Source: Bacteroidota bacterium
Lineage (GTDB): Bacteria > Bacteroidota > Bacteroidia > 2-12-FULL-35-15
Length of the DNA: 59,318 nucleotides
Direction: 5' to 3'
NCBI GenBank assembly: GCA_023251835.1
Contig: JAHEXZ010000021.1
Location: 1 to 59,318 of the forward strand
Shown here one piece after another: positions 15,011-21,923 of the stretch. Position numbers and translations under genes: made by a program. The notes under the pieces were generated by a model. It ran no database searches. It was not told where the DNA came from and saw nothing but the letters and a program-made list of their open reading frames with translations. The first letter of the stretch is position 1, and the number at the start of each line of letters is the position of its first letter.

Positions 15011-15931
15011 TCAGAATAAATACCCATCGATTGCCTGTATAGGCTCTGGTAGATCAGTTTCTCCCAATTGTTGACGAAGGTTGATTTCTATTGTTCTTGA
15101 TAAGGCCGAAACAGGAACATCATTAATAGTATTTTCAAACGGATTTTCAATATTATTACCCACTCTTGCCAATACAAAGAAAATAAAGGCAATTATAAAA
15201 GTAGCAGGTATTGTAAGATAGCCTAATTCATTTACCATAGAAAATGGCAATAGCAAAATAAATACCCAGACAAATACACCGGTGTAATAACTGTACTGAC
15301 GGGGGAAAACAGTATTCTTAATACGTTCACACCCGCCCAGTGTATCACACAATGCACTAAGTCTTGTATCCATCTGCATATGACGATAATCTTCAATATA
15401 TCCTACCTCATGAATCTCCTGTAAACGTTTGGCTTGTTTTTGTAAAATAGCATTTGGTATATTTTGCTGATTTTGTAAACCAGCTATTTCTTCTGTGGCT
15501 AAAAATAATTTCAAGTTTTCAAACGGGTTCTGTCTTCTTAAATGATGTGCAGTAGCATAAATAAAAGCAATCTGTCGATATACCAACTCTTTTTGTAATG
15601 CTTTTAATTCTGTTTCGGTACCCTCTTTATGATGTTTAAGAGTTAAAAATGTAAGCACCTGTCGTGTAATAGACCTGGAATCATTTACAAAAGCACCCCA
15701 TAACCTGCGTGCTTCCCACCATCTGTCGTATGCAGAATTATTACGAAAACCCAACAATATAGCAAGTGCAGTACCAAGAATCCCCACAGGTAATATAGGT
15801 ACAGCTAATTGTTCACAGCCAAAATAACAATAACCAACAGATACGATTGAAGTTACAATTAGTATCGTTGACATCGGTTTCCACAAATAATAGACTATTT
15901 TATTGAGAGCAAGATGTTTTCTTACGATCAT
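15011..15931 (-). CDS. Bestrophin-family anion channel
   Basis: A 306-residue inner-membrane protein of the bestrophin / UPF0187 family, which forms pentameric channels for chloride, bicarbonate or, in some bacteria, cations. Visible marks are the early FRNNSAYDRWWEARRLWG block near residues 61-78, several hydrophobic helices and the C-terminal block NPFENTINDVPVSALSRTIEINLRQQLGE. The start ATG at 15931 overlaps the stop of the upstream carbonic-anhydrase-like gene by four bases (ATGA), so the two are translationally coupled. That pairing favours a bicarbonate-related role, but the ion cannot be read from the sequence. Confidence 0.9.
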   Translation of the reverse strand: MIVRKHLALNKIVYYLWKPMSTILIVTSIVSVGYCYFGCEQLAVPILPVGILGTALAILLGFRNNSAYDRWWEARRLWGAFVNDSRSITRQVLTFLTLKHHKEGTETELKALQKELVYRQIAFIYATAHHLRRQNPFENLKLFLATEEIAGLQNQQNIPNAILQKQAKRLQEIHEVGYIEDYRHMQMDTRLSALCDTLGGCERIKNTVFPRQYSYYTGVFVWVFILLLPFSMVNELGYLTIPATFIIAFIFFVLARVGNNIENPFENTINDVPVSALSRTIEINLRQQLGETDLPEPIQAIDGYLF

Positions 15932-17076
15932 GATTTTGCCAGGCTAAGTTGATTAATGGGGATAAGATTTACATTATATTTTTTAATAATCATACTCATT
16001 AAAAGATCATTTTTTATTTTTTGCATTATCCGATTTGTCTGCGCTTCATTGTATCCCATTACCATTTGGTCTGTTAGTTCCAGATGTTTCACACTATAAT
16101 AAAAACCAGCAATAACATAAGGGCCAAACGGAGTGAGAGGCATATCAAAAGAGCTACCGGTAAGATTAAAAACAGTATTTGGCATATATGTATTTGTATT
16201 TTCAACTCCTTTATACTTCATATAATATTGAGCTGCAAGCAGACGAGATGACATTCGCGGATCTGCCATACATAGCAATCCGGCTAAAGGTTTCTGTTTT
16301 TCAGACTGATGGAGTAATATATCATGTAATGATTCCTTTGTTCTGTTATTACGGATATATGCTTGTACATCATCCCAAAATGGAACAGCAGGATGTCCTC
16401 CATCTACTCTTATTAGAGCATGTATCGCATAATCCTGTATACCTGCAGTAACTTTAATATCGAGTGTTTTCAAATTAGGATCAGACATAATAGCCTTTTC
16501 GAGGATAGCACGTTGTGCCCTTGGATGAGTTCTCAAATAGTCAATACTTTTCACCCAATCACCTGCTAAATAACCATCATAAGCATATAGCTCTCTAAGC
16601 AATATACGTATTTTGCTATCAGTATCTATTGTAACTTCTTCTCCTTTTCTTTTGATAACCGGTTTTTCCTCAACAATAAGTTTTTCAAGCTCTATACCAA
16701 CACCACTTGCACCTAACATACCACAATTAAAAGGTGAGCCTTCCACAATTTTCATATTATGTATATGGCTTACATAGCTTTTATCTGAGCTTTCATCCAG
16801 TTCGCCATGTGAATTGATATGCACATAATAACTTATTTTTTTATTTATATAATTACTATTCCTCTGATTAGTCTCAAAAGTGCGCTTGATATCCTCAATA
16901 ACATCTGGAGTTACAAAAGATCCTGCCGCCCTGATTACATGAAATTCAATATGAATTCCTTTCTCCTTATAAGCGGTAGAAATAGTGTTGACAGCTTCCA
17001 CCTGCAATTGGTTTAAGTCTCTGGCATCAGCACAACCTATCAGAATATGAACCTGTTGTTCTTCTATCTCTTGCAT
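15928..17076 (-). CDS. Tandem beta-carbonic-anhydrase-like protein
   Basis: A 382-residue cytoplasmic protein I read as two beta-carbonic-anhydrase-like halves. The first half has GCADAR with Cys15, Asp17 and Arg19, where the family has CxDxR. It also has RAAGSF near residue 49 (family RNAGN) and a strand ending in HINSHG, with His90 in the place of the His of HxxC but Leu93 in the place of the Cys. The second half has MADPR (270-274), NLTGSSF, the helix GFYYSVKHLE, and GYNEA (341-345), so all three metal ligands are replaced while the Asp-Arg pair stays. Zinc binding is therefore doubtful even in the first half. It is coupled to the bestrophin gene. Confidence 0.6.
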   Translation of the reverse strand: MQEIEEQQVHILIGCADARDLNQLQVEAVNTISTAYKEKGIHIEFHVIRAAGSFVTPDVIEDIKRTFETNQRNSNYINKKISYYVHINSHGELDESSDKSYVSHIHNMKIVEGSPFNCGMLGASGVGIELEKLIVEEKPVIKRKGEEVTIDTDSKIRILLRELYAYDGYLAGDWVKSIDYLRTHPRAQRAILEKAIMSDPNLKTLDIKVTAGIQDYAIHALIRVDGGHPAVPFWDDVQAYIRNNRTKESLHDILLHQSEKQKPLAGLLCMADPRMSSRLLAAQYYMKYKGVENTNTYMPNTVFNLTGSSFDMPLTPFGPYVIAGFYYSVKHLELTDQMVMGYNEAQTNRIMQKIKNDLLMSMIIKKYNVNLIPINQLSLAKS

Positions 17077-17250
17077 ATTTTTATTAACATTAGATTTTAC
17101 AAAAATATAATAATATAGCTAACTGGAAATTTTCTTGTAAAAACAAAAAAAATTGAGACTTCAAAAAGGATTTTTTATAGTTTTACTCAAAGTAATTCTT
17201 CTTTCGTACCTAAATTAAACTCTGCTATCATCAGTAAATAAAAAAATTAA

Positions 17251-18117
17251 ATGAAACTAATTATTAATAACCTTTCAAAAACCTATTCCAACGGACTTAA
17301 AGCTTTGGACAGTATCACGATGGAAATCAATAGTGGAATGTTTGGTTTGCTTGGCCCAAACGGAGCCGGTAAATCTTCATTGATGCGAACTATTGCTACA
17401 TTACAGGAAGCGGATACAGGCACTATTATGTTAGGGGATATTGATGTAATCAAACAAAAAGATGCAGTACGTAAAGTGCTTGGTTATCTGCCGCAGGATT
17501 TTGGTTTTTATCCAAAGGTTTCTGCTTTTGATATGTTAGACCATTTTGCAGTTTTAAAAGGTATAGCTAATTCAAAAGAAAGAAAAGACGTATGTGATGC
17601 CTTACTTAATCAAACCAATTTATATGAAGCCCGAAAACGCAATCTTAGTGATTACTCCGGAGGTATGAGACAACGTTTTGGAATTGCACAAGCATTACTC
17701 GGTAATCCTAAATTAGTAATTGTTGATGAGCCAACAGCAGGCCTGGATCCAATGGAGCGTAATCGTTTTCATAATCTGCTGAGTGAAATAGGTTCAACTA
17801 TTATTGTTATACTTTCTACCCATATTGTTGAAGATGTACGTAATCTGTGTTCCAATATGGTGATTATGAATCAGGGAAAAATTCTGCTTTCCGGAAAACC
17901 GGCTCAAACCATTGAAGATATGAATGGAAAAATATGGAGCAAGCTGATTGACAAAGAACAATTAACAGATCATAAAAACAATTTTAAAGTTATTTCAACA
18001 AAAGTGGTAGAAGGAAAAATACAAATACATGTGTTTCATCCAACACTGCCCGATTCTTCGTTTAATAGAGTTACTGCTGACCTTGAAGATGTTTATTTTG
18101 CAACGATAACCCAATAA
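17251..18117 (+). CDS. ABC transporter ATP-binding protein
   Basis: A 288-residue ATPase of an ABC exporter. Walker A is GPNGAGKSS (residues 36-44), the signature is YSGGMRQR and Walker B is LVIVDEPTAGLDP. The C-terminal tail of about 70 residues matches long ATPases of the CcmA / multidrug type. It precedes a permease/M1 peptidase gene on the same strand with about 100 bases between, so the two likely form one exporter. The cargo is unknown. Confidence 0.92.
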   Translation: MKLIINNLSKTYSNGLKALDSITMEINSGMFGLLGPNGAGKSSLMRTIATLQEADTGTIMLGDIDVIKQKDAVRKVLGYLPQDFGFYPKVSAFDMLDHFAVLKGIANSKERKDVCDALLNQTNLYEARKRNLSDYSGGMRQRFGIAQALLGNPKLVIVDEPTAGLDPMERNRFHNLLSEIGSTIIVILSTHIVEDVRNLCSNMVIMNQGKILLSGKPAQTIEDMNGKIWSKLIDKEQLTDHKNNFKVISTKVVEGKIQIHVFHPTLPDSSFNRVTADLEDVYFATITQ

Positions 18118-18221: not shown

Positions 18222-21200
18222 ATGTTTAAACAACTATTTCTTTTTGAACTCAAGCTTTGGTTTAAAAAACCAGCAACCTATATCTTCTTTTTGATTTTCT
18301 TTGGGCTTTCCATGCTCATTACTTCAGCAATAGCCGGATTGCTTGGCACTTCAAGTGTTGATAGTAACACTACCATCAATTCAGCAAATGCTATTGCCGA
18401 TATTTTAAATGGTTTGAATACCGATATTATAGGCGCCATTATTTTAATCACTATTATTGCCCCTGCAGTGTATAAAGATTTTCAGTACAATATGCATCCA
18501 CTGCTGTTTACAAAGCCTATAAGTAAACCAGGGTACTTATTCGGTAGGTTTACTGCCACTTTTCTGGTAGCTTTATTTGTGCTTTCAGGAAGTATATTAG
18601 GGCATATGGTTACTTGTATTTTTCATGGAATAGAAGCTGGCAGACTGGGGAATTTCAGCATTATAAATTACCTGCAACCTTTTATTTTATTTGTTGTTCC
18701 CAATACCTTGCTGATAGGAGCTATCTTTTTTTCTCTTGTTACCTTTTCACGTAACATGATTGCGGGTTACGTTGGTTGTGTTGCTTTGATATTAATCAAA
18801 AGTATTACATCTGCATTGCTTGGTGATATAGATAACCAAACGCTTGCTGCTATTATAGAGCCATTTGGCGAACAAGCTTTGAAAAAAATTACAAAATACT
18901 GGTCACCCGCTGAACAAAATACATTATTAATACCATTGGAAAATGAACTACTATACAATCGTTTATTGTGGCTGAGCATTGCAGGAGGTATTACAGCTCT
19001 TACCTATTTCCGCTTTAAGTTCAGCCAGTTTAATGAACCTGTTTTTTTATTCCGAAAAAAAAACAGGAAGGAATTTCTCTCTACCATATCCGCATCAGTT
19101 CATTCATTGGCAGATGTTCCTAAAGCAACTCAACTGTTTACAAACCGATTCAGTATATACCAGGCGTGGTACTCAGCTAAATTTGAATTTGGTAAAATTG
19201 TTAAAAGTATTTTCTTCCTGATTATTATTGCATTGAGTATTTTGAGTTTTGTCGCTGTCAGCTCCCAGCTAAACCTTATCTATGGTACATCAACCTATCC
19301 CGTTACCTACCAGATGCTTCAGATTGGTGGAGGCATTTTTCAGTTTTTTATGATTATTCTAATTGTATTTTATGCAGGTATTACTATCTGGCGTGAACGT
19401 GATGCCAAAATAGATGAGCTTATAGGGGTAAGTCCGGTTGCGCCATGGGTAAGCTTTGCCTCCAAACTAACAGCAATAGTTATGGTTCAGGTTACATTGC
19501 TGTTTGTTATTATGACTACCGGAGCGGTACTTCAAATGTATAATGGATATTATAAAATTGAATTATTACAATACATCAAAGAATTATTTGGTTTAAAGTT
19601 GATAAGCTTGACCTTAGTTTGTGTTATGGCTATGGCTATACAGGTGATTATAAACAATAAATATGTTGCCTATTTTGCGGCAGTATTAATTCTTATTGTA
19701 TTGCCGATAGCATTTAATTTATTGGAGTGGAATAACCAGTTGATGCTATTTAACAGCAGCGGCCCACGCCTCCCATACTCCGATATGAATGGATACGGAC
19801 ACGGCATTTATCCTTTCCTTATTTTTAAAACCTATTGGATCGGCTTTGCACTCATTCTTATTGTGCTTTCCAACCTATTATGGGTACGCGGCAAAGAAAA
19901 AGGCTTCAAAACCCGTTTACATATTGCAAAGCCATTATTCAATATGAAAGCAAAAGTATTTATCTCATCAGGTTTACTTATTTTTCTGTTAAGCGGAGGA
20001 TTTATTTATTACAACACCAGTATCCTTAATAAAAATATTTCTTCGAAAGAACAGGAAAAAATGCAGGCCGATTATGAAATAAAATATAAACAGTATTCCC
20101 GAACTCCTCAACCACGCATTGTTGCTGTCAATTGGAATGTTGATATTTTTCCCGAAAAACGGGGTGTTACAATGAATGGTTATTATATTATTAAAAATAA
20201 AACAAAACAACCAATAGATACTATACTAATAAATCTATATCCGGAAATAACTGATCCAGAATTAAAATTTGGTTTACCAGCAACTCTTTTTATAGATGAC
20301 AAAGAAAACGGATTCCGGCTTTATCAACTTTCAACACCATTAAATCCGGGAGATTCAACACGTTTGGAAATGAAATTGAATTATTTTCCTAAGGGATTTA
20401 AAAATTCAGAAGCAGGAACAGCTATTGTATACAATGGTACTTTTTTTAACAGCCAGTTTGCTCCCGGCATAGGTTACCAGGCTGAAGGAGAACTAAGCGA
20501 TGACTCCGCAAGAAAAAAATATGGGTTAAGAAAAAAGGAACGTATGGCCAATGTCAACGATTCCCTTGCACGTATGAATACATATATTAGCAATGATGCC
20601 GACTGGATAAACTTTGAATGTACCATAAGTACATCGAATAGCCAGATAGCTATTGCTCCGGGCTATCTTCAAAAAGAGTGGGAAAAAGATGGAAGGCGCT
20701 ATTTCCATTATAAGATGGATTGCAAAATATTAAATTTTTATGCATTTCTTTCCGCGCGGTATGAAATAAAACGGGAGCAATGGGTTTCATCATCAAATCC
20801 CAGGCAGATAGTAGCTATTGAGATTTATTATAACAAAGGCCATGAATACAATCTTAACCGTATGATTAATAGTATAAAAAAATCATTGGATTATTATACG
20901 AAGAATTTTAGTTCATACCAGCATAAACAAGTGCGTATTATTGAGTTTCCACGATATGCTACTTTCGCGCAATCATTTCCGAATACAATACCATTCTCTG
21001 AAGGTATCGGTTTTATTGCTAAAATAGATGACACTAATCCAGAATCTATTGATTATCCTTTTTATGTAACAGCACATGAAGTTGCACATCAGTGGTGGGC
21101 ACACCAGGTTATTGGCGCTAATGTTCAGGGTTCTACACTGATGGCGGAAACTATGTCGCAATATTCAGCATTGATGGTAATGGAAAAAGAGTTTGGTAAA

Positions 21201-21923
21201 AAAGCCATGAAGAAATTTTTAAAATATGAAATGAATCAATACCTGCAGGGACGGGCTCTGGAGGGAAAGAAAGAATGCCCGCTAATGCTTGTAGAGAACC
21301 AGCAGTACATACATTATAACAAAGGCAGCGTGGTGATGTATGCATTAAAAGATTATATAGGCGAAGATTCTTTAAATGCTGCTCTTGCAAAATACATCAG
21401 AAAGGTAGCCTACCAGGAGCCGCCATATACCAACTCTATTGAGTTTGTAAACTACCTGAAAGCCGCCACTCCTGACAGCTTAAAATATATAATTAATGAT
21501 ATGTTTGAAACTATTACTTTGTATGAAAACAAAACTACCGGTTGTTCTTATAGTAAAACCAAAGACGGTAAATACCTTGTGAAAATTACAGTGGAAAGCA
21601 AAAAGATGAAAGCGGATAGCATTGGAAAAATGAAAGATGTTGCTATTAACGATTGGATTGATATTGGCGTTTTTGGCAGCAAAGAAATAAATAGTGAAAC
21701 AGAAGAAACAGAATTATATCTGCAAAAACATAAGATTAACAAGAATAAAATGGAATTTGAAATTATTGTGGATGAAGAGCCTGAAAAAGTTGGTATCGAT
21801 CCATATAATAAATTAGTTGACCGCACACCGGATAATAATACGCGTTCAGCTAAAGAAGGAGTTAAAGAAAATGATGAACCGAAAGATGAAGGTGGAAGTG
21901 TAACAATTAAAGTAGGTGCTTAA
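18222..21923 (+). CDS. ABC transporter permease fused to M1-family peptidase
   Basis: A 1233-residue protein in two parts. The first 600 residues hold about 12 hydrophobic segments of an ABC-2-like permease, beginning MFKQLFLFELKLWFKKPATYIFF. The second part, from about residue 610, is a periplasmic M1 aminopeptidase-like domain with HEVAHQWW at residues 952-959 (His952, Glu953, His956) and the likely third zinc ligand Glu976 in LMAETMSQYSAL. The domain order fits a known Bacteroidota family in which a transporter exports something to its own peptidase. It is preceded by its ATPase. The tail after residue 1200 is a low-complexity acidic segment. Confidence 0.9.
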   Translation: MFKQLFLFELKLWFKKPATYIFFLIFFGLSMLITSAIAGLLGTSSVDSNTTINSANAIADILNGLNTDIIGAIILITIIAPAVYKDFQYNMHPLLFTKPISKPGYLFGRFTATFLVALFVLSGSILGHMVTCIFHGIEAGRLGNFSIINYLQPFILFVVPNTLLIGAIFFSLVTFSRNMIAGYVGCVALILIKSITSALLGDIDNQTLAAIIEPFGEQALKKITKYWSPAEQNTLLIPLENELLYNRLLWLSIAGGITALTYFRFKFSQFNEPVFLFRKKNRKEFLSTISASVHSLADVPKATQLFTNRFSIYQAWYSAKFEFGKIVKSIFFLIIIALSILSFVAVSSQLNLIYGTSTYPVTYQMLQIGGGIFQFFMIILIVFYAGITIWRERDAKIDELIGVSPVAPWVSFASKLTAIVMVQVTLLFVIMTTGAVLQMYNGYYKIELLQYIKELFGLKLISLTLVCVMAMAIQVIINNKYVAYFAAVLILIVLPIAFNLLEWNNQLMLFNSSGPRLPYSDMNGYGHGIYPFLIFKTYWIGFALILIVLSNLLWVRGKEKGFKTRLHIAKPLFNMKAKVFISSGLLIFLLSGGFIYYNTSILNKNISSKEQEKMQADYEIKYKQYSRTPQPRIVAVNWNVDIFPEKRGVTMNGYYIIKNKTKQPIDTILINLYPEITDPELKFGLPATLFIDDKENGFRLYQLSTPLNPGDSTRLEMKLNYFPKGFKNSEAGTAIVYNGTFFNSQFAPGIGYQAEGELSDDSARKKYGLRKKERMANVNDSLARMNTYISNDADWINFECTISTSNSQIAIAPGYLQKEWEKDGRRYFHYKMDCKILNFYAFLSARYEIKREQWVSSSNPRQIVAIEIYYNKGHEYNLNRMINSIKKSLDYYTKNFSSYQHKQVRIIEFPRYATFAQSFPNTIPFSEGIGFIAKIDDTNPESIDYPFYVTAHEVAHQWWAHQVIGANVQGSTLMAETMSQYSALMVMEKEFGKKAMKKFLKYEMNQYLQGRALEGKKECPLMLVENQQYIHYNKGSVVMYALKDYIGEDSLNAALAKYIRKVAYQEPPYTNSIEFVNYLKAATPDSLKYIINDMFETITLYENKTTGCSYSKTKDGKYLVKITVESKKMKADSIGKMKDVAINDWIDIGVFGSKEINSETEETELYLQKHKINKNKMEFEIIVDEEPEKVGIDPYNKLVDRTPDNNTRSAKEGVKENDEPKDEGGSVTIKVGA

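Follow-up and report, generated by a model that had tools for sequence, protein, structure and literature searches.

Canonical beta-carbonic anhydrases (beta-CAs; PF00484, for example Can and CynT of E. coli) carry a CxDxR motif followed by RxxG, and the cysteine that serves as third zinc ligand lies 3 residues after the ligand histidine. In two double-domain proteins this second Cys is displaced from the His, and the zinc domain is paired with a non-catalytic one. DabA (PF10070), the CA-like component of DAB/DAC inorganic carbon uptake, contains two beta-CA-like domains with one zinc site and works with a membrane partner. The ligands of H. neapolitanus DabA2 are Cys351, His524 and Cys539 (His-Cys 15 apart), and DabA sequences collected here read GHG...(D/G)CGAC. 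CsoSCA has a catalytic domain of about 247 residues and, C-terminal to it, a non-catalytic one of about 118; its ligands are Cys173, His242 and Cys253, with His and Cys 11 apart (PMC12646314).

Carbonic anhydrases are also found in association with channels or transporters. The beta-CA-type proteins LCIB/LCIC from Chlamydomonas have been reported to interact with the bestrophin-like proteins BST1-3 in CO2 recapture (PMC6708349), which may serve as a precedent for a CA beside a channel. In SulP transporter-CA fusions and neighbours, an anion transporter is genetically joined to a beta-CA. Five of our genomes (G029, G002, G033, G525 and G535) contain Pro_CA matches in open frames 725-755 codons long, which is the length one would expect of such fusions.

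The gene pair in the window

The window, i.e. the whole stretch of 59,318 nucleotides that was analysed, contains a pair of genes with the following features:

15928..17076, minus strand: first gene of the pair, an ORF encoding a 382-residue double beta-CA-like protein
15011..15931, minus strand: bestrophin family channel (PF25539) with neck residues Thr54, Ile58 and Phe62, from profile and structure-sequence matches
15928..15931, minus strand: ATGA stop/start overlap, read from the sequence
17100..17107, minus strand: possible Bacteroidota-type -7 box TATTTTTG, 23 nt 5' of the ATG, by pattern match only

Both ORFs and their overlap, as given in the preliminary description, are borne out by the sequence: the plus strand reads TCAT at 15928-15931, which is ATGA in coding direction and places the TGA stop of the CA-like gene over the ATG of the bestrophin gene. 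The motifs listed there, GCADAR (C15, D17, R19), RAAG (49-52), HGEL (90-93), MADPR (270-274) and GYNEA (341-345), are likewise all found in the protein. The downstream ORF is indeed a bestrophin, since it matches PF25539 over residues 11-286 (E 7.8e-75) and the KpBest structures with E 7.5e-42. The two genes probably form an operon, and the ATGA overlap possibly allows translational coupling. No intrinsic terminator was found in the region of the gene pair. The assignment of TATTTTTG follows the Bacteroidota-type -7 consensus. GC content and third-position GC of both genes equal those of the flanks; thus, composition is uninformative regarding horizontal transfer. Elsewhere in the window, an ABC ATPase gene (17251-18117) precedes a gene (18222-21923) for a 1233-residue protein with ABC-2 permease segments and an M1 peptidase domain.

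Probable relationship to beta-carbonic anhydrases and predicted metal site

No match for the 382-residue protein was obtained with Pfam (up to E 10), NCBIfam or the PDB sequences, even with lenient limits, or with PADLOC. The curated cut-off of PF00484 was not reached; in contrast to canonical beta-CAs, the protein remains below every library threshold, and PF20393 (Pro_CA_2) was not detected in its relatives. The Pfam search returned neither DabA, CsoSCA (PF08936) nor the LCIB-type CA (PF18599, up to E 10); for DabA, hhalign gave a non-significant P of about 0.3. The double-domain CA-like family is unnamed in the libraries searched. A relationship to beta-CAs is nevertheless likely and concerns the following parts of the protein:

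16672..17076, minus strand: N-terminal beta-CA-like half, residues 1-135, from the Pro_CA profile match and two AlphaFold2 models
15931..16329, minus strand: C-terminal, ligand-free beta-CA-like half, residues 250-382, with QKPLAGLLCMADPR in register with Q.P..L.I.CSDSR of Pro_CA
17020..17034, minus strand: CADAR, with predicted zinc ligand Cys15 and the Asp17-Arg19 dyad, invariant in 14/14 and aligned to IGCSDSR
16807..16809, minus strand: His90, predicted zinc ligand, invariant in 14/14, at the end of the third strand
16723..16725, minus strand: Cys118 (NCG), predicted third zinc ligand, an invariant cysteine in a DabA-like HG...(D/N)CG layout

Both halves were aligned profile to profile (hhalign) with a Pro_CA reference of 12 canonical beta-CA sequences. 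In half 1, LIGCADAR aligns to IGCSDSR, the HVIRAAGSFVTPD stretch to the FVHRN segment and, weakly, NCGML to the CG of the HxxCG site. The residues of CxDxR and RxxG (C15, D17, R19, R49 and G52) are invariant and occur in this order in the Pro_CA register. In half 2, SEKQKPLAGLLCMADPR aligns to the Q.P..L.I.CSDSR start of beta-CA, i.e. the Q.P..L...CxDxR register is repeated. Because the absolute scores are weak (probability of 28% or less), shuffle and rank controls were run. Column shuffles reached the real score in 1 of 150 cases for half 1 and in 4 of 150 for half 2. When 171 ORFs from the same loci were ranked against Pro_CA as single sequences, members of the family, which are homologous and hence not independent trials, took ranks 1-7 and 9-11, most of them with one alignment spanning both CxDxR (CADAR) and RxxG (RAAG). 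Four further members ranked 33-45; for three of these the alignment lies in the second half, at the corresponding part of beta-CA. DabA, whose beta-CA-like fold is known from a structure, does not score higher with the Pro_CA profile; the weak score is therefore no evidence against such a fold. Aligning half 1 with half 2 gave no hhalign signal, so an internal duplication is not shown by sequence.

The two AlphaFold2 models are of mediocre quality (pLDDT 69 for model 1 and 72 for model 2). In both, half 1 is predicted as strand-helix-strand-helix-strand, an insertion and a helix, with its motifs at the ends of successive strands as in beta-CA. Foldseek returned several beta-CAs for model 1, at E 0.03-0.1 but with low TM-scores, and the top 50 for model 2 contained none; the MID domain of AGO, lumazine synthase, CTP synthase and others appeared at similar E-values. 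The proposed beta-CA likeness of both halves is thus supported by profile rank and motif register, but structure models and fold searches did not settle the fold.

At the usual place of the HxxC zinc motif the family reads HG(E/H/D)L. The preliminary description read the metal ligands as apparently lost. An invariant Asn-Cys-Gly at 117-119, which could supply the third ligand, had been overlooked. All 14 aligned family sequences have C15, D17, R19, H90 and C118. Cys15 and Cys118 are the only two invariant cysteines, and across the family the latter sits in an NCG context, 27-28 residues C-terminal of His90. Given that about 31% of the alignment columns are invariant, this conservation supports a role as ligands without proving it. 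In half 2, Cys269 is present in 7 of 14 sequences and neither His nor Cys occurs at the second site. Hence, the suggested loss is probably correct for half 2 but probably wrong for half 1. We propose a Cys2His zinc site in half 1 that probably consists of Cys15, His90 and Cys118 together with the Asp17-Arg19 dyad, and consider it likely that this site is intact. The chain would thus bind one zinc ion, in half 1, and would not be a pseudoenzyme.

Compared with canonical beta-CAs, the protein shares the succession of CxDxR and RxxG and the predicted order of strands and helices, but comprises two halves in one chain, and its third ligand follows the His by 28 residues instead of 3. DabA is similar in layout: C.D.R, HG and then a displaced (D/N)CG are arranged as in our protein, in which two beta-CA-like domains with one zinc site are also predicted and which, like DabA, may work with a membrane partner. 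The window protein, however, is half the size of DabA, its His-Cys spacing is 28 rather than 15, and no dabB partner gene is present, the window neighbours being the bestrophin gene and unrelated genes. With CsoSCA it would share the combination of a zinc domain and a non-catalytic C-terminal domain, but it lacks the N-terminal domain, and there are no shell genes among the neighbours examined. In Ohtaekwangia koreensis, about 4.4 kb separate a DabA gene from a Pro_CA match that is weak and divergent (G450:C6:719181-726206).

Distribution of the family and bestrophin pairs elsewhere

Fourteen further intact copies of the CA-like gene were found, mostly in Cytophagales, with 54-66% identity to the window protein among the aligned copies. 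One genome collection yielded O. koreensis and a near-identical MAG. The gene occurs in 11 of 197 genomes of the O. koreensis family, these two included, and in 6 of 341 genomes of its order, the two sets consisting partly of the same genomes. It is absent from 35 genomes of the same genus as the window organism, and in a sample of 395 Bacteroidota genomes it was found in the window genome only. Plasmids, phages and viral contigs contained no homologue of the protein. Accordingly, the gene is patchily distributed, mostly in Cytophagales, and isolated in the window genus. A weak match from the phylum sample (G158) was rejected as a chance hit to a universal stress protein. Genome G773 carries a decayed, frameshifted copy (L068:5254-5863). 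A canonical beta-CA is encoded elsewhere in the window genome, and 14 of 15 further genomes with a family member that were tested also have one; therefore, the CA-like protein does not simply stand in for the housekeeping CA.

No bestrophin gene was detected by phmmer beside the CA-like gene at any of the 14 other loci, in flanks of 5 kb on each side for two loci and mostly 7-10 kb for the rest (3-4 kb on each side at L029, one side only at L026). The family as a whole is thus not tied to bestrophin. Several Cytophagales loci have an S41 peptidase gene upstream of the CA-like gene, and four of them also encode a protein of about 345 residues with no Pfam match (L024:5606-9897, L028:6045-10308, L029:3176-7452 and L032:8828-16702); in three of these four the genes are directly adjacent or overlapping. 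At L026:1591-3648 the CA-like gene adjoins genes for a response regulator and a PAS histidine kinase.

The coupling to bestrophin suggested in the preliminary description is not seen in the family's own loci, an outcome that this description had itself named as a refutation, but it reappears in a broader form, in which canonical beta-CA genes adjoin bestrophin genes. In four genomes of the same genus (G001, G002, G007 and G019) a canonical beta-CA gene lies immediately downstream of the bestrophin gene on the same strand. Three of these pairs represent one lineage; the fourth combines a distant bestrophin (about 31%) with a different, Can-like CA. On a plasmid of Caballeronia zhejiangensis the CA gene precedes the bestrophin gene with a 1-bp gap, the order seen in the window, and nine other plasmid bestrophin loci examined have no annotated CA. 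Adjacent genes are located at L035:802-2409, L036:1372-2932, L049:817-2385, L040:13-1672 and L120:1816-3382, and either gene order occurs. Genomes of several thousand genes carry 1-4 CA genes each, so that five such adjacencies would not be expected by chance, according to an estimate rather than a formal test.

Mapped onto the bestrophin tree, the label 'CA-paired' has to change four times, and well-supported branches force at least three of these changes. All CA-paired bestrophins fall into one subclade of 12 rows, and within the tree the label is not significantly clustered (85 of 500 shuffles were as low). Repeated loss from an ancestral bestrophin/CA pair is possible. In a literature search that covered mainly open-access papers, no description of a bacterial bestrophin-CA gene pair was found. 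The pairing of bestrophin with beta-CA is apparently both undescribed and broader than the CA-like family.

Possible function of the pair

We regard the 382-residue protein as a probably catalytic double-domain beta-CA-like protein that is normally independent of bestrophin and has here been recruited beside one, in parallel to the repeated pairing of bestrophins with ordinary CAs (probability roughly 0.5). We picture the soluble protein at the channel's cytoplasmic entrance or close to it, possibly in physical contact, where it would interconvert CO2 and bicarbonate or act on a related small molecule. Half 2, devoid of ligands, would complete a pseudo-dimer of the beta-CA type, and the bestrophin would conduct either bicarbonate or some ion that offsets the reaction.

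A possible though not preferred explanation is that the protein is a beta-CA-like zinc enzyme unrelated in function to bestrophin, the overlap having arisen incidentally or, after horizontal transfer, through a recent joining of the two genes into one operon. This would agree with the lack of bestrophin genes at the 14 other loci, with the absence of the gene from the remaining genomes of the genus and the Bacteroidota sample, and with the S41 peptidase and 345-residue protein genes near several Cytophagales copies. The adjacency of bestrophin and ordinary CA genes, however, recurs, also in the window genus, which makes a chance join with precisely a CA-like gene less likely.

Two other explanations question the enzyme itself. 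The protein may be no relative of CA but an alpha/beta enzyme of another kind, in which CxDxR arose by chance and the metal site has nothing to do with that of CAs, as the lack of library matches and the diverse Foldseek hits would allow; the Pro_CA rank test, the in-register matches of both halves and the beta-alpha-beta succession, in which every motif falls at the end of a strand, render this improbable. Even less probable is the regulatory pseudoenzyme considered earlier, which would bind an anion without catalysis and gate the bestrophin. It would account for the ligand-free half 2 and for the HxxC motif missing at its usual place, but not for the five catalytic-type residues of half 1, which are invariant once Cys118 is counted, nor for the persistence of the family without bestrophins.

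The algal LCIB-bestrophin partnership, in which a beta-CA-type protein likewise accompanies a bestrophin-like channel, is eukaryotic and chloroplastic, and Pfam gave no LCIB-type match for our protein. SulP systems differ in that the transporter is unrelated to bestrophin and the CA is canonical. That bestrophin and beta-CA are paired repeatedly, apparently independently and in either order suggests a role in the handling of inorganic carbon or pH. The double-domain family may illustrate how a beta-CA-like zinc site can be re-laid with one ligand far from the His. Only tentatively do we suggest that, next to DabA and CsoSCA, it constitutes a further family of double-domain CAs whose ligands are separated, here connected to a bestrophin channel, and that together with the recurrent pairs it forms an undescribed bacterial module for inorganic carbon (or pH/anions), a counterpart of the algal LCIB-bestrophin partnership.

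We know of no physiological role for most bacterial bestrophins; the bacterial bestrophin commonly used as a model is described as a sodium channel. The Na+ selectivity of KpBest is associated with Ile at the middle neck position, and a Phe in its place favours Cl-. The neck of the window bestrophin (Thr54-Ile58-Phe62) has the middle Ile of Na+-selective KpBest, so the channel might carry a cation or a proton-linked counter-ion rather than bicarbonate. Among the CA-paired bestrophins, that of L040 has Phe at this position and the others have Ile.
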